Positions 9,528-17,867 of a stretch of 64,000 nt of DNA are shown here, in pieces (position 1 is the stretch's first letter; the number at the start of each line of letters is the position of its first letter). The translations under genes and the position numbers were made by a program. The notes under the pieces are model-generated. The model saw nothing but the letters and a program-made list of their open reading frames with translations. It did no database searches and had not been told where the DNA came from. The stretch comes from Stenotrophomonas acidaminiphila (GTDB lineage: Bacteria > Pseudomonadota > Gammaproteobacteria > Xanthomonadales > Xanthomonadaceae): contig CP019797.1 in NCBI GenBank assembly GCA_002951995.1, forward strand, positions 3,332,501 through 3,396,500, read 5' to 3'.

Positions 9528-10472
9528 CTACAGGTCGGGCCAGTCGCGGGCGGCCCAGCGCCGGTACGCTCGGTAGTGGTGGATGGCGAAGCCGGCGAAC
9601 GACGGTTCGGCACCCAGCGCCTGCTCGACCTTGCGCACCTCGCGCTCGAACACCCTGGGGCCTTCCTCGTGGAAGGTGACCTTGTCGATGTCGTTGGAGG
9701 ACACCTCCAGCCCGATCACCACCTGCTTGCCGACGCGGTTGGCGTAGGCGATCTCCTCGGCCGCGTGCGAGAGGATGCTGTCGCGGCCCTCGGCGCGGTC
9801 GCGGTAGTCCATCAGCGCGACGTAGTCGTAGGTGTCGATGGCATGCTCGCTGACCGGGCGCACCCTGCCCTTCCATTCCAGGGTGATGCCGTCCAGCCAG
9901 AACGGGATCGCCGGGCCCACCTGCAACTGGGCGCCGGACGCGCGCTTGATCCGCATCAGCGCGTCGCTCATGTCCAGGAAGCCGACCAGCAGGCGCTCGC
10001 GGGTTTGGTCGTTCCATTCGTCGAGGATGTGCGGCTCGATGTCGAGGTTGACGCCGTCGAAGCGCGCCGCCACCGGCGCCGCGGCGTTGTACTCGACCAC
10101 CCGCCGGAACATGGCCTCGGCCTCGGCGCGGTAGGCCGGCAGCACGTAGTTCTCGGTGTTGAGGTAGGCCGAGCCCAGCAGCGCGTACACCTTCATGCGC
10201 TGCCCGTGCAGGCGCTCGATGAAGGCACGGTACAGCTGCGGCTGGTCGACGATGAGGTTGCGGCCGCGGTAGGCGTCGGCGTACAGGTACACCGTGTCGA
10301 TGTGCTGCGACTTGAGGTAGGCCACCGCCTCCTCGGCCACGGCCGGATCCTCGACCATCGCGTAGGACTCCGCCTCCCAGGTCCAGATCGCGCGGCTGGC
10401 ACCGGCGGATGCCGCCAGCGGCAGGACGCACAGAACCAACAGCAGGCCCAGACTGATGCGCAGGTGTGTCAC
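9528..10472 (-). CDS. Secreted TIM-barrel protein, glycoside-hydrolase-like, in surface-polymer locus
   Basis: 314 residues with a cleavable signal peptide (ISLGLLLVLCVLPLAASAGA). The mature part looks like a (beta/alpha)8 barrel: alternating strands such as VYLYADAYRG, MKVYALLGSAYL, the acidic strand FDGVNLDIEPH, YVALMDYRDRA and VVIGLEVSSND. The D-G-V-N-L-D-I-E-P strand recalls the DxxDxDxE strand of GH18-type enzymes, but I cannot assign a family. The GTG start overlaps the stop of the LtaS-like gene (GTGA), so it is the last gene of the five-gene locus. It could trim or process the exported polymer, as the C-terminal hydrolase domain of PgaB does in PNAG systems (inference). Confidence 0.75.
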   Translation of the reverse strand: MTHLRISLGLLLVLCVLPLAASAGASRAIWTWEAESYAMVEDPAVAEEAVAYLKSQHIDTVYLYADAYRGRNLIVDQPQLYRAFIERLHGQRMKVYALLGSAYLNTENYVLPAYRAEAEAMFRRVVEYNAAAPVAARFDGVNLDIEPHILDEWNDQTRERLLVGFLDMSDALMRIKRASGAQLQVGPAIPFWLDGITLEWKGRVRPVSEHAIDTYDYVALMDYRDRAEGRDSILSHAAEEIAYANRVGKQVVIGLEVSSNDIDKVTFHEEGPRVFEREVRKVEQALGAEPSFAGFAIHHYRAYRRWAARDWPDL

Positions 10473-12841
10473 GGCGAGGTTCCCGTTGCGTTGACCGCGT
10501 CCACCGGCAGGCGATAGCGCCCCTGCCCGATGGCCTTGCCGGTGTCCGGATCGGACGGAAACACGGAGACATAGCAGCGCGCGCTGCAGGCGTCGGGCCG
10601 CGGCAGCTGCAGCTGCACCTGCTGCCGTCCGCCCGCGGGCAAGGCCAGCGCCTGGCCGTACACTTCGTGCAGTTCGCTGCCGTCGGCGGCGGTCAGCACC
10701 GCCAGCGGCACGAACGTGCGGCTGGGTGCGCCGTCGCCATTGCCGAACACCATCGACAGGCGCAGGCCGTTGCCGGCCGGCACCACCTGCGCCGATTCCA
10801 TGGACAGCCCGGCCATGGCCGGGCCCGCCGGTGCCTGCACCTGTATCTGCGGCGCGGCCTGGTAGGCCACCAGCGCCGGTCTGGCCGCGTCCGGGTCCAG
10901 CGCCTGCTGTTGCATGAAGCTCGCATTGGCCTGCGTGTAGCGCTGCAGGCGCGCATTGGCCCACGCCAGCAGCGACGCATCATCGACTTCGGCCAGGTGC
11001 ATGCCCTCCTGCAGCTGGTAGAGCTTGCCGTCGTACAGCCACCAGCGGTCGGCCAGGTACTCCACCGCGCTGGTCTTGGTCTGCTTCAGCGGCAGCGCGT
11101 GGATGTTGCGGAACGTGTCGGCCATGTCCAGGCCGGTGCCGAGCCACGGCGTCCGCGCCGGCCGCTTCAGCCCATAGGTGTTCGACAACAGGGCCAGCAG
11201 CGACGGCGTCACGTCCAGCTGCGACGAAACCGCGCGGATGCGCGCGGCGCGCTTGAGCAGCGGCGAGAAGATGATCAGCGGCACGTGGTAGCGATCGACG
11301 TGCTCGCCCATCGGGATTTCCGGCAGGCGATGGTCGCCGGTGATCAGGAACACGGTGTTGGCATACCACGGCGCTTTGGCCACTTCGTCGAAGTAGCGGC
11401 GCAGCTGGTCGTCGGTGTAGAGGATGCTGCTGTAGATGTCCGCCTGCGCCTGGTAGGACGGCAGCTGCGCCTCGGGAATCCGCAGCTGGGCCAGGCGCTG
11501 GGCGAACTGCGCGCGGTAGGCGTCCTGGCCGGGGAAGCGGTAGCTGGTGTGCATGGTGATGGTCTGCATCGCCAGCAGGAACGGCGGCTGCAGGCGGCCA
11601 CTGTCGGCCAGCACCCGCGACACCAGCTCCTTGTCCGGGTAGCCCCAGGTACTGAACGGGTTGCGCGCGTAGCCCGGACCGAAGGAGTTCATGTCCACCA
11701 GCGTCTGCACCTGCTGCAGGCGCATGTAACCGCTCTCGTTGTCGAAGCCGGTGTCGGTGCCGTTGTAGAAGGCGGTGTGGTAGCCCTGCTGGCCGAGCAC
11801 GCTGAACAGGCCCGGATGCGGCGGCATGCGGTCGCCCAGCGCGGTGAACCCCTGGTCGGCGAACGGCGCCGAGCCCAGCAGGCTGGGCAGCACGCCGAAG
11901 GTACGGCCCTGGTTGGCCAGGAAATTGTCGAAGTACAGGCTGCGCGTCGCCAGCTCGTCGAGGAACGGGGTGAAGCTGCCCAGCGTGGCCTCCGGGCCGG
12001 AGAACGAGCGCCCCAGCCCCTCCACCACGATGACCACCACGTTCGGCGGGCGGCCGTCGGCGGTGGGCGAGAACCAGGGACCGAGCGTGTCCGGCGTGCG
12101 TTCGTCGTGCAGGAACGGGTAGTGCGGATCCAGCGCCGGCTCGCCGGGGTCGGCGGCCGCGCCCGCGCCGCCGGCCGCGGCAGGCGCGGCACTGTCCTGC
12201 CATCGCCATACGTCGGCGCCGAACCAGGCCAGCTTGTTGCTGGCCAGTCCGCGCGCCGGTTCGTCCTTCAGTGCCGCGGCGCCGGCCGGCAGCGGTACCA
12301 GCCAGGCCAGCAACCCGGCCACCAGCAGCAGCGTGGTCCACAGCACCGAGCCACGCGCATCGCGCCGCACCCACCACCACAGCCCGGCCCACAGCGCCAG
12401 CAGCGGCAGGCCGATGGCCAGCACGGTGCCGGCATCCAGCGGCGCCCCGTCGCCAAGCGCGGTGCGTATTTCGGCCAGGCTGTAGCCGAACAGGTCCGCG
12501 CCCAGCGGCACGCGCGCCACCTGGTAGTACTGGTCGAGCATGCCCTGCACGATGATCAGCAGCGACCAGGGCACGGCCACCGCCACCGCGCGCAGCAGCG
12601 GCCGCCGCAGCGCCAGCAGCGGCAGCGACAGCAGCAGCAGTACCGGCACCGTGCGCAACAGCACCAGCAGCGCCTGCGCCAGCGCGACCCCGGCGACCGT
12701 CCACTTTTCCCCGCTGCTCCACGCCATGCCGGCGCTGCCGCCGATCACGCTGGCCGCGACCAGTACGCACTGCGCCAGCAGCAGCGCCCGGAAGCCGGAG
12801 GAGAACCGCGGGTACGCACTGCCCTGGCGTCCGGTGTTCAT
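10469..12841 (-). CDS. LTA synthase-like membrane sulfatase-fold transferase
   Basis: 790-residue inner-membrane protein. About five N-terminal membrane segments (residues ~15-195) precede a periplasmic alkaline-phosphatase/sulfatase domain: NVVVIVVEGLGRSFSG at the start, NQGRTFGVLPSLLGSAPF, FLLAMQTITMHTSY, then the metal site VFLITGDHRLPEI and HVPLIIFSP. About 170 further residues follow. Such enzymes (LtaS, OpgB, EptA groups) transfer phosphoglycerol or phosphoethanolamine to glycans; the donor here cannot be told from sequence. The ATG at 12841 has GGGAG 8 nt upstream. Thirteen bases separate it from the YaiO-like gene, and it is coupled to the TIM-barrel gene. Confidence 0.85.
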   Translation of the reverse strand: MNTGRQGSAYPRFSSGFRALLLAQCVLVAASVIGGSAGMAWSSGEKWTVAGVALAQALLVLLRTVPVLLLLSLPLLALRRPLLRAVAVAVPWSLLIIVQGMLDQYYQVARVPLGADLFGYSLAEIRTALGDGAPLDAGTVLAIGLPLLALWAGLWWWVRRDARGSVLWTTLLLVAGLLAWLVPLPAGAAALKDEPARGLASNKLAWFGADVWRWQDSAAPAAAGGAGAAADPGEPALDPHYPFLHDERTPDTLGPWFSPTADGRPPNVVVIVVEGLGRSFSGPEATLGSFTPFLDELATRSLYFDNFLANQGRTFGVLPSLLGSAPFADQGFTALGDRMPPHPGLFSVLGQQGYHTAFYNGTDTGFDNESGYMRLQQVQTLVDMNSFGPGYARNPFSTWGYPDKELVSRVLADSGRLQPPFLLAMQTITMHTSYRFPGQDAYRAQFAQRLAQLRIPEAQLPSYQAQADIYSSILYTDDQLRRYFDEVAKAPWYANTVFLITGDHRLPEIPMGEHVDRYHVPLIIFSPLLKRAARIRAVSSQLDVTPSLLALLSNTYGLKRPARTPWLGTGLDMADTFRNIHALPLKQTKTSAVEYLADRWWLYDGKLYQLQEGMHLAEVDDASLLAWANARLQRYTQANASFMQQQALDPDAARPALVAYQAAPQIQVQAPAGPAMAGLSMESAQVVPAGNGLRLSMVFGNGDGAPSRTFVPLAVLTAADGSELHEVYGQALALPAGGRQQVQLQLPRPDACSARCYVSVFPSDPDTGKAIGQGRYRLPVDAVNATGTSP

Positions 12842-12854
12842 CGATGCACTCCCG

Positions 12855-14156
12855 TCACCAGCGCGAATAGACCGACAGCGACAGCCGCTTCTCGGCAAAG
12901 CCACCGTCGTCGTCTGCATAGCCGGCGCCGAGCTTGAGGCCCCAGTGCGGCGCGAAATAGTGCATCCAGGCAACACCGACCGCGGCATTGCTGTTGCGCA
13001 CCACGGTGCCGAAACGGTCCATGTCGGTGCTGCGGCCGGTGCCGGCGTTCACCTCCCAGTAGTCGTCCGCATCGCCGCGGTAGTAGTTGCGCAGCAGCAC
13101 CCGGTGGCTCCAGCTGCCCGAGCCCACGCCCGGCACGTGCTGCAGTTTGTAGCGGCCATACCAGTTGCCGACGTAGCGGCCCACGCCGATGCCGTAGAAC
13201 TCGGTGTTGCCGGAGAAGCGCAGGTGGTCGACGCTGGCCGACAGCTCCCAGCCACTGCCCACGCCCTGGAACACCTCGGCGCGCCAGGCCTGCTTCGGCA
13301 GCACGCCGGCCGACGGCCCCTGCTGGTAGCGCAGGTTGGCGTAGGCGCGGGTCCACAACGGCACGTAGCCATCCAGCGCCCAGGCGGTGTCGTTGCGGCC
13401 GAAATGGTCGGCGCGCAGCAGTTCCAGGCCCAGCGAACCACGCTCGAAGTAGCGGCGCAGCGTCAGGTTGGCGTCGTTCCAGCTCTGCCGCCCGCCACTG
13501 AAGCCGGTGTGGTCCCAACCGGCATTGGCGCCCCACCTGTAGCCGCCGGCGATCATCGCGTCGGGGTTGGCCGTGCGCGGCAGCAGGCTCTGCCGCAGCG
13601 AATCGACCTCGGCCGGGTCCGCACCCATCGCCAGCGCGGCATCGAAGTCGGCGCGCGCCGCCGCCGGCTGGCCGGCGTCGCGCAGCGCACGGCCACGCGC
13701 GATCCGCGCCTGCGGGTCCTGCGGCGCCAGTTCCACCCAGTTCGCGTAGGCGTCCACGGCCTGCTGCGGGCGGTCGCTCCAGCGGTACAGGTCGCCCAGT
13801 GCCGACCACGCGTCGGCGTAGCCGGGGCTGGTGCGTACCACGGTGCCCAGGTCCGCCTCGGCGGCCGCGTACTGGCCGTCCCAGGCATAGGTGCGGCCGC
13901 GCGCCAGCAGCAGGTCGCCGTTGCCGGGGTGTTCGGCCAGCAGCGCGGTGTAGCGCTCGATCGCCTCGGCGCGCTGCCCGCCGGTGGCCAGGCCGCGGAT
14001 CTGCGCCATCTGCGCGGTGAGGCTGTCCGGCGCGCCGTCCTGCGCCAGCGCCGGGCCGGCCATGACGGCCAACGCCAATGCCAGGCCCTGCGCCAGCAAC
14101 CGGTGGGTGGATTGGAAACGCGATGACTCGGCCACGGGAATGTTCCTGTTGGTCAC
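12855..14156 (-). CDS. TPR + YaiO-family outer-membrane beta-barrel protein
   Basis: 433 residues. After a signal peptide (GLALALAVMAGPALAQDG) come about four TPR-like helical repeats (residues ~45-190: ERYTALLAEHPGNGDLLLAR, ADLGTVVRTSPGYADAWSAL, and so on). The C-terminal ~230 residues are rich in alternating aromatic strands and end in RLSLSVYSRW, a typical barrel-terminal aromatic. This architecture matches YaiO-type proteins and resembles PgaA, which exports PNAG through a TPR-capped barrel. The GTG start overlaps the glycosyltransferase stop (GTGA). Likely role: outer-membrane export or docking of the polymer made by the GT2 enzyme. Confidence 0.82.
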   Translation of the reverse strand: MTNRNIPVAESSRFQSTHRLLAQGLALALAVMAGPALAQDGAPDSLTAQMAQIRGLATGGQRAEAIERYTALLAEHPGNGDLLLARGRTYAWDGQYAAAEADLGTVVRTSPGYADAWSALGDLYRWSDRPQQAVDAYANWVELAPQDPQARIARGRALRDAGQPAAARADFDAALAMGADPAEVDSLRQSLLPRTANPDAMIAGGYRWGANAGWDHTGFSGGRQSWNDANLTLRRYFERGSLGLELLRADHFGRNDTAWALDGYVPLWTRAYANLRYQQGPSAGVLPKQAWRAEVFQGVGSGWELSASVDHLRFSGNTEFYGIGVGRYVGNWYGRYKLQHVPGVGSGSWSHRVLLRNYYRGDADDYWEVNAGTGRSTDMDRFGTVVRNSNAAVGVAWMHYFAPHWGLKLGAGYADDDGGFAEKRLSLSVYSRW

Positions 14157-15679
14157 GGGGTGGGTCCGCCACGGTCCGGGCGGAGGGGGCCTGCCGGCAC
14201 CGCGGCCGGCGGCAGGTCGTCTTCCGGCAGCTGCTGCCAGGAGCCGTCGCGCTGGATACGGCCCCAGCCATGGCGCTTGCGCGGCCGCAGCAGCCAGTTG
14301 ACGGTGCCGGCCAGGCGCCACAGCGAGTTGATCTGGCGGTAGCCGAAGTTCTCCAGCACCGCCACCACGAACAGCCGCAGTTGCTGGCGCGGGCGCGCAT
14401 ACAGGCCGAAGGAGAGCTCCTCCAGCAGCATGGCGTTGACCGACAGCAGCACGCCCATGCCCACCGCCGCGACCAGGAACACCAGGAACACATCCAGCGG
14501 CACCAGGCCGAGGATGGCCAGCGAGATCATCGCCACGTAGCCGATGACCTCGATCGCCGGCCCGAAGAACTCGAACAGCAGCATGAACGGGAAGGCGATC
14601 CAGCCGACGACGCCGCCGCGGCGGTTGAACATCAGCGACAGGTTCGACCACAGGCTTTCGGCCAGGCCGTACTGCCAGCGCATGCGCTGGCTGCGCAGCG
14701 ACTTCAGGTCGGCCGGCACCTCGGTCCAGCACACCGGGTCGGGCACGAACACGATGCGGTAGTCGCGGCCTTCCCTGCGCAGGCTGCGGTGCATGCGCAC
14801 TACCAGGTCCATGTCCTCGCCCACGGTGTCGGCGCGGTAGCCGCCGACCGCGACCACGCGCTCCTTGTAGAACACCCCGAACGCGCCGGAGATGATCAGC
14901 AGCGCGTTCATCGGCGACCAGCCCACGCGCCCGAACAGGAACGCGCGCAGGTACTCGACCAACTGGAAGCTGGGCAGCCAGCGGTCGGGCAGGCCGATCC
15001 GCGACAGCTGCCCGTCGCTGACGGTGCAGCCGTTGAGCACGCGCACCACGCCACCGCTGGCCACCACCCGGCGGTCCTCGAGGAACGGCCGCACCACCCG
15101 CGACAGGCTCTCCGGCTGCAGGATGCTGTCGGCATCCATCACGCAGAACAGCGGATAGCGCGCGCAGTTGATGCCGGCGTTGATCGCATCGGCCTTGCCG
15201 CCGTTGGCCTTGTCCACCATGCGCACGCGCGGATGGGTCGGCGACGCGTAGACGCCCTTCACCGCCTCGGTCTTCAGCCGCGCGCGGTAGGCCTCGGGCA
15301 CCATCACCAGGCCGAACGCCTGGATCAGCGCCTCGCGGGTACCGTCGGTGGAGCCGTCGTTGATCACCACGATCTCGTAGTCCGGGTAGCAGGTCTTGAG
15401 CAGCGAGCGCACCGAGGACACCACCGATTTTTCCTCGTTGTGCGCCGGCAGCAGCACGCTCACCGGCGGCTGGTACTCGCGCAGCGCCTCCGGCAGGTAG
15501 TTGGCGCGGTGCTCGCGCATGTAGCGCACGATCTGGTACGCCGAGATGTAGTTCAGTACCAGGTACGCCAGGTTGATGGCCACGAAGTAGGCCATGAAGA
15601 ACCATTGCAGCGAGACCATCAGGTGCACCCACGGCACCTGGTAGAAATGATCGAGGACCATCTGCCAGTAGGTGTTCAT
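14153..15679 (-). CDS. Processive GT2 glycosyltransferase (PgaC/HAS-like)
   Basis: 508-residue membrane glycosyltransferase of family 2. N-terminal membrane helices (~20-50) precede the GT-A domain: LLPAHNEE, INDGSTDG (107-113), CVMDADS (181-184) and GEDMD (287-291), then the processivity motif QRMRW (331-335). C-terminal helices follow (IAFPFMLLFEFFGP, VFLVFLVAAVGMGVLL). All catalytic motifs of a polymerising synthase are intact. The sugar is not readable from sequence; the closest architecture is PgaC-like poly-N-acetylglucosamine synthase. It is coupled by ATGA to the upstream HEAT-repeat gene and by GTGA to the downstream barrel gene. The set recalls the Clp-controlled xag glycosyltransferase cluster of Xanthomonas (from memory, not verified). 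Confidence 0.9.
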   Translation of the reverse strand: MNTYWQMVLDHFYQVPWVHLMVSLQWFFMAYFVAINLAYLVLNYISAYQIVRYMREHRANYLPEALREYQPPVSVLLPAHNEEKSVVSSVRSLLKTCYPDYEIVVINDGSTDGTREALIQAFGLVMVPEAYRARLKTEAVKGVYASPTHPRVRMVDKANGGKADAINAGINCARYPLFCVMDADSILQPESLSRVVRPFLEDRRVVASGGVVRVLNGCTVSDGQLSRIGLPDRWLPSFQLVEYLRAFLFGRVGWSPMNALLIISGAFGVFYKERVVAVGGYRADTVGEDMDLVVRMHRSLRREGRDYRIVFVPDPVCWTEVPADLKSLRSQRMRWQYGLAESLWSNLSLMFNRRGGVVGWIAFPFMLLFEFFGPAIEVIGYVAMISLAILGLVPLDVFLVFLVAAVGMGVLLSVNAMLLEELSFGLYARPRQQLRLFVVAVLENFGYRQINSLWRLAGTVNWLLRPRKRHGWGRIQRDGSWQQLPEDDLPPAAVPAGPLRPDRGGPTP

Positions 15680-16736
15680 GCCTTGATCCCCAGGCGGTGC
15701 TCGGACAGCACGTGGTCGATGATGTCGCGGCCATAGGCGTCGGCCAGCCGCTCCTTGATCTGCAGCAGCGCCTGCTGGCCCGCGCCGGGCAGCGCCAGCA
15801 ACGCCTGCGCGGTGCGGTAGCGCACCCACCAGACACTGTCCGCCAGCAGCGGTTCCAGCAGGCCGCGGTCGCCCGGCTCGCCCATGCGCCCGAGCGCCGC
15901 GGCCGCGTGCATGCGTACGTGCCAGCGCGGCGAATCGAGGAAGCGCTTGGCCCGCTCGCGGTCCTGCGGGTCATTGAGCAGCTGCAGGCACACCGAGATG
16001 ACGTGGTCGTCCACCTGCGCGTCGAGCAGCTGCCGCACCACCCCGGCCGCCTGCGCGGGGCGATGCGCGCCAGCAGGCGCACCAGGGTGGCGGCCGTGTC
16101 GCTGTTGGCGCGCAACAGCACGCTGGACAGCTCGCGCGCCGCGCTGCCGTCGTGGTTGTCGGTGAGGATCCGCGCCACGCTGCCCGGGAACCAGTCCTCG
16201 CGCGAGGCGATCATCGGCACGAACAGCGCCATCGCCCGCGGCGGGTCGATCTGCGCCAGCGCGCGCGCGGCGCACAGCGACACGATCGGGCTGGGGTTCT
16301 CGAGGAAGCCGGACAGCTCGTCGAACAGCCGCGGGTCGCGCAGGTGGCCGAGGGCGATGATCGCCATCGCGCGGTCGTGGTAGCGTCCATCGAGTTGCCG
16401 GCGCGCGGCCTCGACCAGTCCGACCCGCTCGCCCAGCGCCGCCAGCCGGCGCGAATCGGCCTCGGGCAGCGATTCATGGATCGTGTTCCACGCCTCGATG
16501 AACCCGTGCGCCTGGCGCGCGTCGAGCCGGCGCAACGGCGGGGAGGCGCCGGCCAGCTCCTGATTCAGTACCTGCATCCAGTGCTCGCGCTCGCGGAAAT
16601 CGCGCTTTTCCCGCCGCAACGCGCGCATCCTCAGCAGCACGACCCCGGCCAGCAGCAGACAGGACATCGTGATGGTCAGCACCGCAACCCAGAATGCAAT
16701 CACCACTACCGGCGAACCGTGCAAAAGACTGTCCAT
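15676..16736 (-). pseudogene. Membrane-anchored HEAT-repeat protein, frameshifted as read
   Basis: First gene of the surface-polymer locus. One N-terminal membrane helix (VVVIAFWVAVLTITMSCLLL) is followed by cytoplasmic HEAT-like repeats (AMAIIALGHLRDPRLFDELS, SLCAARALAQIDPPRAMALF). After LVRLLARIAP the frame is lost; adding one base to the CCCC run (+ strand gggg 16057-16060) restores AQAAGVVRQLLDAQVDDHVI, then repeats such as HVRMHAAAALGRMGE and WVRYRTAQALLALPG, and the stop that overlaps the GT2 ATG. The intended product is 353 residues. ATG at 16736 has GGGAGAA upstream. Probably an accessory or regulatory partner of the synthase. The break looks like a base-calling error. Confidence 0.8.
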
Positions 16737-16820
16737 GTTCTTCTCCCTGTCACAGAAGCGGCATCCATGTCCGCGTTGGAATATCTCTAGGCTAATACCG
16801 GCAAAAAGATGCAAAGTTTT

Positions 16821-16836
16821 TGTGACTTGAGTCACA
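16821..16836. promoter_or_regulatory. Perfect Clp/CRP-type binding site
   Basis: TGTGACTTGAGTCACA is an exact TGTGA-N6-TCACA CRP consensus with 7-bp symmetric arms. It lies in the 147-bp gap between the divergent polymer locus (starts 16736, - strand) and the phosphatase-TPR gene (starts 16884, + strand), so one bound dimer could affect both. In xanthomonads the CRP homologue Clp uses this consensus and responds to c-di-GMP. Confidence 0.85.
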
Positions 16837-16883
16837 ATAATCACACATGCTCACCAACGTGCAACTGCATCGGGAGTGGGAAG

Positions 16884-17867
16884 ATGAAGAAATCGTTAAG
16901 AAACAAGGTGCTGATCCTCGGCGCATGCCTGGCGCTGCTCGGCGGTGCCGCCGGCGTCTGGGTCCTGCTGCACCCGGCCAGCTTCGTGGTGCAGCCGTGG
17001 CGCGCCCAGCAATCGGTGACCGGTGCGCGCTTCGTGTTCGGTCCCTACCCGGTGGATGCGGACATGCACCGGCTCAAGGCCGAGGGCATCACCACCATCA
17101 TCAGCCTGCTCAACCCGCAACTGCCCTACGAGGCGGCGTTGCTCGACGATGAAAAGGAACGTGCCGCGCGCCTGGGCATGCGGGTACTCAATTTCCCGAT
17201 GGGCAGCATCCTCGGGCAGCGCTTCGGCGCCGACTACGAACGCAATTCGCGCGCCGCGGCCGACGCCGCCATCGCCAGCCCGGGCACGGTCTACATCCAC
17301 TGCTATCTGGGACTGCACCGCGCCGCCAGCGTGCGCGATTACCTGGAGCAGCACGCCGGCCAGGCCGCCACCAGCGAGTTCGACGGCTCGCTCGAACACG
17401 GGCGCAGCGATCGACAGCTGGCCAACGAACGCGCCCAGGGCCTGTACGAGCAGGACGACTATGCGGGCGCCCTGCGCGAACTGGCCACCGTGCAGCCGAT
17501 GGACTATGCCGCGTACGTGCTCACCGGCTGGGTCCAGCTGCGCCGCGGCGAGAACGTGCTGGCGCGCGATGCGTTCCGGCGGGCCACGCTGATGCCCGAT
17601 CCCAAGGCCGACGCCTGGGGTGGCCTGGGCTTCGCGCTGCTGCGCCTGGACGACCTGGAGGGCGCGTCCACCGCGTTCGAGCAGGCGCTCAGGCTCTCGC
17701 CCGACGACAACGACGCGATGCAGGGCATGGCCCAGGTGCTCTACCGGCAGGACCGGACGGAGCAGGCGCGCGCCCTGCTCGAGCGGCTGCACGCCCAGGC
17801 CCCGGACAACGCCGAGGTCAACGCGCTGCTGGAGCGGCTGAAGCAACCGGCGGACGCTTCCCGCTAG
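16884..17867 (+). CDS. Membrane-anchored PTP/DSP-like phosphatase with C-terminal TPR repeats
   Basis: 327 residues. An N-terminal membrane anchor (residues 9-30) is followed by a dual-specificity phosphatase-like domain with the signature HCYLGLHRA (Cys130, Arg136; C-x5-R), preceded by GITTIISLLNP. TPR-type repeats fill residues ~170-320 (YAAYVLTGWVQLRRGENVLA, DAWGGLGFALLRLDDLEGAS, DNDAMQGMAQVLYRQDRTEQ). The Ser/Thr that normally follows the loop Arg is Ala, and no clear general-acid Asp loop is seen, so activity may be altered. The ATG at 16884 follows GGGAGTGGGAAG. It is divergent from the polymer locus and shares its Clp-box region, which suggests it tunes polymer production, as Wzb-type phosphatases do elsewhere (inference). 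Confidence 0.8.
   Translation: MKKSLRNKVLILGACLALLGGAAGVWVLLHPASFVVQPWRAQQSVTGARFVFGPYPVDADMHRLKAEGITTIISLLNPQLPYEAALLDDEKERAARLGMRVLNFPMGSILGQRFGADYERNSRAAADAAIASPGTVYIHCYLGLHRAASVRDYLEQHAGQAATSEFDGSLEHGRSDRQLANERAQGLYEQDDYAGALRELATVQPMDYAAYVLTGWVQLRRGENVLARDAFRRATLMPDPKADAWGGLGFALLRLDDLEGASTAFEQALRLSPDDNDAMQGMAQVLYRQDRTEQARALLERLHAQAPDNAEVNALLERLKQPADASR

Follow-up and report, generated by a model that had tools for sequence, protein, structure and literature searches.

What do six neighbouring genes make, if one of them encodes a processive polysaccharide synthase and another a membrane transferase related to lipoteichoic acid synthase (LtaS)? The genes lie at positions 9528-17867 of the window, which is the whole 64,000-nt stretch of DNA that was analysed (3,332,501-3,396,500 on one contig of 3.66 Mb). 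They had been described in an initial annotation as a coupled surface-polymer locus, and all six were found there, five of them packed end to end. The features are as follows.

9528-10472, minus strand: TIM gene, with the GTG start of the database copy P0001; secreted (beta/alpha)8-barrel protein
10469-12841, minus strand: LtaS-like gene; LtaS-type membrane transferase of 790 aa with an extra C-terminal beta domain
12855-14156, minus strand: YaiO gene, GTG start; hydrophobic N-terminus, TPR and YaiO outer-membrane beta-barrel
14153-15679, minus strand: GT2 gene; processive GT2 polysaccharide synthase with TM segments
15676-16080, minus strand: C-terminal piece of the HEAT gene, in a second frame; HEAT_2, 39.4 bits
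16053-16736, minus strand: N-terminal piece of the HEAT gene, with one N-terminal TM segment; HEAT_2, 40.3 bits
16737-16883, no strand: divergent intergenic region (promoter region), 147 bases
16821-16836, plus strand: candidate CRP/Clp-type operator TGTGACTTGAGTCACA, a perfect palindrome 84 bases upstream of the HEAT start
16884-17867, plus strand: phosphatase-TPR gene; membrane-anchored, predicted periplasmic protein with a C-x5-R motif and C-terminal TPR

Between 16736 and 9528, read in minus-strand direction, the genes follow one another in the order HEAT, GT2, YaiO, LtaS-like and TIM. The HEAT and GT2 genes and the GT2 and YaiO genes overlap by 4 bases, as do the LtaS-like and TIM genes with the GTG start of P0001. 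The YaiO and LtaS-like genes are spaced by 13 bases, and 147 bases separate the HEAT start from the phosphatase-TPR gene on the plus strand. The genes, we propose, belong to a conserved and modular set that serves to synthesise, decorate, trim and export a surface polysaccharide with an LtaS-type glycerol phosphate decoration, a reading that we regard as about equally likely to be right or wrong.

The HEAT protein named in the initial annotation is present, in that both pieces match HEAT_2, but its gene spans two frames instead of the single one assumed. The nearest intact relative obtained by protein search (P0121, 353 aa) is 95% identical over the N-terminal piece and represents a 90%-identity cluster with 84 member sequences. 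HEAT matches were obtained in 22 of 38 chosen loci, every one a single frame of 1056-1071 bases. The split in the window is either a lesion or an assembly error, and this copy of the locus may thus be inactive. A decaying locus, in which the HEAT gene is broken and the remaining genes persist without polymer production, would agree with the two frames. However, the remaining genes are open and retain catalytic-type residues, intact near relatives of the HEAT gene are known, and an assembly error may also explain the frames; decay appears rather unlikely. A single TM segment lies at the N-terminus of the HEAT protein, and a stretch of positive charge comes after it; with this topology, the HEAT repeats would be cytosolic and next to the active site of GT2.

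The LtaS-like protein matches the Sulfatase family (PF00884) with 113.7 bits (cut-off 25). Glu274, Thr314, His431, Asp503 and His504 are conserved in 72 of 72 rows of an alignment that leaves out one short copy and counts some genomes twice. We take Thr314 to be the nucleophile, and Glu274, Asp503 and His504 the metal residues, of the LtaS/alkaline phosphatase superfamily, to which the protein belongs by its sulfatase-fold domain with Thr and metal-type residues. In the AF2 model (pLDDT 84.6), five long helices form the N-terminal part, next to a sulfatase-fold domain, and a beta domain forms the C-terminus. Its best Foldseek matches are Listeria LtaS structures, with a glycerol-phosphate complex at the top. 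Among the first 16 matches by structure, 11 are LtaS, LtaP or B. subtilis LtaS2 chains; VP1736 and PbgA also belong to these 16, and MCR-1 stands at rank 32. The profile matches in the PDB (E<=1e-4) were VP1736, LtaS, LtaS2, LtaP and two weaker sulfatases, none of them named as a phosphoethanolamine (pEtN) transferase. By model prediction, Foldseek ranks and PDB profile matches, the enzyme is thus nearer to LtaS than to the pEtN transferases, and its assignment as an LtaS-type transferase stands.

As for the transferred group, our best guess is phosphoglycerol from phosphatidylglycerol, favoured by the fold match to LtaS with glycerol phosphate and by a diacylglycerol kinase (DgkA) in some of the related loci described below. 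The donor is less certain because the scores against the curated models for lipoteichoic acid synthase (NF053595, 36.4 bits, cut-off 970) and phosphoglycerol transferase I (OpgB; NF009027, 37.7 bits, cut-off 572) lie far below the cut-offs. BcsG attaches phosphoethanolamine to cellulose, and the enzyme of the locus, as a member of the same superfamily, could move this group instead of glycerol phosphate; transfer from phosphatidylethanolamine (PE) would likewise yield diacylglycerol for DgkA. The PDB profile matches, the low rank of MCR-1 and the lack of any match to an NCBIfam pEtN transferase at E<=0.01 argue against phosphoethanolamine, which we consider improbable. The enzyme might also act as a polymerase that builds a teichoic-acid-like polyglycerolphosphate chain on the polysaccharide rather than adding single groups. 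Its nearest fold is that of LtaS with glycerol phosphate and the Thr and metal-type residues are conserved, but the LtaS cut-off is far from reached and the data do not separate single from multiple additions. We hold such a chain to be very unlikely, and phosphoglycerol transfer is retained as the preferred reading.

The TIM protein has a hydrophobic N-terminus and no match in Pfam or NCBIfam at E<=0.01. Its nearest named relative is from Stenotrophomonas acidaminiphila JCM 13310 (96% over 311 aa), which suggests that the strain belongs to this species or stands near it. The AF2 model (pLDDT 90.7) is a (beta/alpha)8 barrel, and the first 10 Foldseek matches comprise three Cwp19, one E. coli PgaB, five GH18 chitinase and one GH5 structure, all with TM-scores of <=0.6 (0.4-0.6 for GH18 and PgaB). 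The barrel in the model and the glycosidase matches by Foldseek agree with the secreted TIM-barrel protein of glycosidase fold that had been annotated. In a second structural look, GH5/GH1 enzymes outnumbered GH18. The GH18 signature is DxxDxDxE on strand 4. The window protein has FDGVNLDIEPH (family form on strand 4, FDG[VA]NxDIEPH) and departs from the signature in DGVNLDIE, where the second Asp is replaced by a nearly invariant Asn (Asn/Gln in the family) and the last Asp and the Glu are invariant. Asp136, Asp141, Glu143 and Tyr220 are invariant in 24/24 rows. The GH18 family (PF00704) was not matched by the window protein and was matched weakly by 3 of 24 family members (best E 0.0013). 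With this partial likeness to GH18, the protein is likely a GH18-like hydrolase that trims the polymer. Its only sequence relative in the PDB is entry 10yv, labelled 'Putative GH97', in which the stretch aligned with NxDIEP of the TIM family reads QLDVEP.

The GT2 protein matches PF00535 and PF13641 (Glycos_transf_2, 90.4 bits, cut-off 23.3). Asp108, Asp182/Asp184, Glu288-Asp289 and Gln331-Arg332-x-Arg334-Trp335 are invariant in 21 aligned rows, including Elusimicrobial members, and presumably have the roles of the corresponding GT2 motifs (the last being QRxRW). The score against cellulose synthase CelA (TIGR03030) is 36.3 bits, below the cut-off of 699.1, and no hyaluronan synthase family is among the Pfam and NCBIfam matches. 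The YaiO protein of the window exceeds both YaiO cut-offs (PF19413, 94.8 against 23.9 bits; TIGR04390, 125.2 against 32 bits) and is likely the exporter.

The same annotation had called the locus PNAG-like. This description is sound for the overall plan and fails at the family level. The best NCBIfam match of GT2 is PgaC, at 125.1 bits against a cut-off of 422.3 (TIGR03937), and the barrel reaches 27.6 bits against the PgaA cut-off of 366.65 (TIGR03939). A polysaccharide deacetylase domain of the PgaB type was absent from the TIM protein (Pfam and NCBIfam, E<=0.01) and from the five families matched at E<=1 by 24 TIM-family members, and none of the seven locus proteins scanned matched PgaD. 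PNAG was accordingly rejected at the family level, since GT2, barrel and hydrolase all miss the Pga definitions. One could still envisage a variant of the PNAG type (poly-beta-1,6-GlcNAc) in which an LtaS-like modification takes the place of deacetylation. A TPR barrel, a GT2 and a barrel hydrolase form the same plan, PgaC is the best match of GT2, E. coli PgaB is third among the matches of the TIM model, and the own genome has no GT2 above the PgaC cut-off. Weighed against the distance of GT2 and barrel from the Pga cut-offs, the lack of a deacetylase domain and the lack of a PgaD match, we judge this variant unlikely. In the preferred reading, the locus is one of the synthase-dependent exopolysaccharide systems, neither PNAG nor cellulose, and its sugar is perhaps of the GlcNAc type, as suggested by the GH18-like and PgaC-like relatives.

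The recurrence of the set was examined in relatives. Among 119 genomes of the same family, eight encode the TIM protein, and these eight are also the ones with full-length LtaS (E<1e-190); 26 further genomes gave weaker matches of the LtaS superfamily only. GT2 (E<1e-60) was present in 7 of the 8 genomes with TIM versus 9 of the 111 others (Fisher p 1.5e-6, ignoring kinship). In the family of Massilia (145 genomes), TIM (E<1e-100) was found in 2 and GT2 (E<1e-90) in 16 including both (p 0.011, again ignoring kinship). At the class level (369 genomes), 17 genomes have GT2 (E<1e-80), and the 3 with TIM are all among them (p 8e-5, likewise ignoring kinship). The order HEAT-GT2-YaiO-LtaS-TIM is present in 6/6 same-family loci with enough flank, and the phosphatase adjoins it in three of them. 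Of the two loci left, one (G024) is a short contig of 3.4 kb that carries LtaS-TIM, and the other is that of the window.

When genome contigs were scanned with the TIM alignment, 69 named loci were obtained. They come from Stenotrophomonas, Dyella, Rhodanobacter, Thermomonas, Lysobacter, Pseudoxanthomonas, Massilia and Pseudoduganella, from a Comamonas and further proteobacterial MAGs, from MAGs of Elusimicrobia, from two MAGs titled 'bacterium' and, as a weak match, from one MAG of Bacillota. LtaS was found in 66 loci, a YaiO-type barrel in 53, GT2 in 42, HEAT in 41, the phosphatase in 14, a stand-alone receiver (REC) in 11 and DgkA in 7, many of the GT2 and HEAT absences being due to short contigs. 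In 10 further loci of Elusimicrobial origin or arrangement, a match came from Elusimicrobial queries only, to a TPR protein of 511-549 aa; no YaiO model matched in the four of these proteins tested, so that an exporter barrel is uncertain there. LtaS is missing in L153 and L159, where TIM lies near the locus end or the match is weak. No LtaS-like gene was detected in the Elusimicrobial set of L158, which has the remaining parts. Near Elusimicrobial-type sets, at L111:3953-5860 and L150:6442-8349, lies a second gene of the sulfatase family (635 aa, PF00884 136-138 bits), and that of L150 (137.7 bits) sits near the usual LtaS position.

Among the 47 loci with long flanks, the five-gene order is present in 23: it is bare in 17, joined by the phosphatase in 5 and accompanied by a distant REC in 1. 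Another 15 are limited to YaiO-LtaS-TIM, and the remaining 9, of which 6 carry Elusimicrobia in their titles, are arranged otherwise; 15 of the 47 have no GT2 nearby. The search for the five-gene order in relatives was thus successful, and its presence in 6/6 same-family and 23/47 long-flank loci indicates that the grouping is not due to chance. Lack of co-occurrence in relatives and a GT2 of the cellulose or hyaluronan type had been named as grounds against the initial reading; the genes co-occur, and GT2 is of neither type by family matches.

The 15 loci with YaiO-LtaS-TIM only are from Massilia/Pseudoduganella. One strong GT2 homologue, placed elsewhere, was found in 16/16 genomes of this group (those 15 and that of L126). 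All five Massilia-type GT2 loci fetched (L176-L180) have REC-HEAT-GT2 followed by a second, TIM-related protein of 551-598 aa or a longer frame (motif QFDIEP in the one read), and HEAT and REC were confirmed with Pfam in one of them. Strong GT2-HEAT sets were also found without LtaS and TIM. Thirteen GT2 loci were fetched from Xanthomonadaceae with no LtaS/TIM nearby, some with YaiO-like matches. A REC gene lies near 8 of the 9 with clear HEAT-GT2 (L078-L084 and L086); the other four have a weaker GT2 with a weak HEAT match (L087) or a weak GT2 only (L088-L090). In L081, one upstream gene encodes a hybrid histidine kinase. Together with L176-L180, a stand-alone receiver is near HEAT-GT2 in 13/14 loci without LtaS nearby. 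Four Elusimicrobial loci have the arrangement REC-HEAT-GT2-phosphatase-DgkA(-)-LtaS-TIM-TPR protein(-), while L130 and L156, of the same type, are without phosphatase and DgkA. In Elusimicrobial-type loci, HEAT was confirmed with Pfam in 4, REC in 1 and DgkA in 3. These three, tested among the seven DgkA loci, match PF01219 with 108-116 bits (L137:7098-7472, L111:10880-11239 and L158:10828-11217). DgkA beside LtaS-TIM would recycle the diacylglycerol left by a transfer dependent on phosphatidylglycerol or PE. The joining of the same parts in different orders suggests that they work together.

The divergent phosphatase-TPR gene had also been counted with the set. Its product has an N-terminal TM segment, then the C-x5-R motif (HCYLGLHR in the window) and then TPR, for which TPR families were matched in Pfam. 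Of 19 aligned rows, in which two genomes are counted twice, 18 contain the form HCYLG[LK][HD]R; the odd row, L130, is a TPR-only match. The motif and a homologue in Elusimicrobial loci support the association. The gene occurs in both proteobacteria and Elusimicrobia, and is missing from most of the 69 loci. The phosphatase is the least certain member, and its role is the weakest step of the scheme below.

Two levels of control are suggested. The stand-alone receiver that accompanies HEAT-GT2 in Massilia, Elusimicrobia and LtaS-less Xanthomonadaceae leads us to propose, from gene content, that the synthase is likely under phosphorelay control through HEAT. At the promoter, a candidate CRP/Clp-type site (<=1 mismatch) lies within 400 bases upstream of HEAT in 8 of 29 relatives and is absent in the other 21; dinucleotide shuffles (60 sets) gave on average 0.22 and never more than 1 site-bearing relatives versus the 8 observed. 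Among the proteins of the own genome is one of 233 aa (L182:1387-2088) that carries a cNMP-binding domain and that we take to be Clp-like. A cNMP-binding protein running into a GGDEF-like stretch was also observed about 7.4 kb before the window start (L181; G000:C1:3324820-3325071). According to a study on Xanthomonas campestris, xag is repressed by Clp, the putative site is TGTGA-N6-TCGAT, and c-di-GMP inhibits Clp binding (PMC3528676). By analogy, transcription of the locus may be controlled by Clp in the lineage of the window. What the analysis adds to the initial annotation is the CRP/Clp-type site, the frame split in HEAT, the occurrence of REC-HEAT-GT2 units elsewhere, the divided form in Massilia and the Elusimicrobial form with DgkA.

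From gene content, order, overlaps, recurrence and conserved catalytic-type residues, and from the predicted folds, we infer the following scheme. GT2 would polymerise the sugar chain and translocate it across the inner membrane, with HEAT as a membrane partner that may hold and gate the synthase. The LtaS-like enzyme would attach glycerol phosphate drawn from phosphatidylglycerol, and in loci with DgkA this kinase would recycle the diacylglycerol. The chain would be cut or trimmed by the GH18-like TIM protein and exported through the YaiO barrel, and the periplasmic phosphatase might have as its substrate phosphate groups on the polymer or on the donor lipid. More tentatively, and with some doubt on our part, the locus may be a Gram-negative counterpart of teichoic acid decoration. 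It would combine a synthase-dependent exopolysaccharide carrying LtaS-type glycerol phosphate (or short polyglycerolphosphate) with a receiver-HEAT post-translational switch instead of c-di-GMP, in a kit movable across Gammaproteobacteria, Betaproteobacteria and Elusimicrobia. If true, a synthase-dependent polysaccharide system with LtaS-type decoration would be added to Gram-negative bacteria, a conserved barrel protein unnamed in Pfam and NCBIfam would gain a function, and control of a polysaccharide synthase through a receiver domain and HEAT scaffold would become open to testing. The locus is compact and found in named environmental isolates, so that deletion and composition tests would be direct.

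No description of such a gene set was found among the titles and abstract starts of the open-access papers listed, which is a weak sign that the set is undescribed. The Pga plan places a processive GT2, a TPR outer-membrane barrel and a secreted barrel-fold hydrolase in one operon. The locus shares this plan with PgaABCD, but it is without a deacetylase domain or PgaD match and adds HEAT, the LtaS-type transferase and the phosphatase. In E. coli yaiO-yaiP-yaiS, a YaiO barrel is likewise encoded beside a GT2, whereas HEAT, LtaS-like and TIM proteins are not known to be part of that system. LtaS, OpgB and GacH are phosphoglycerol transferases. The locus enzyme resembles them in its LtaS fold, its Thr and metal-type residues and the DgkA companion in some loci, and differs in its 790-aa length with an added beta domain, its place in a Gram-negative GT2 polysaccharide locus and its scores below the curated LtaS and OpgB cut-offs. 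The Bcs system also has an alkaline-phosphatase-superfamily enzyme (BcsG) that decorates a GT2 polymer, but the present GT2 is distant from CelA (36.3 versus 699.1 bits) and the present transferase is nearer to LtaS. Xanthomonas xagABCD, with which the initial annotation had tentatively compared the locus, resembles it as a biofilm glycosyltransferase operon of the same bacterial family with a putative Clp site in its promoter (PMC3528676).
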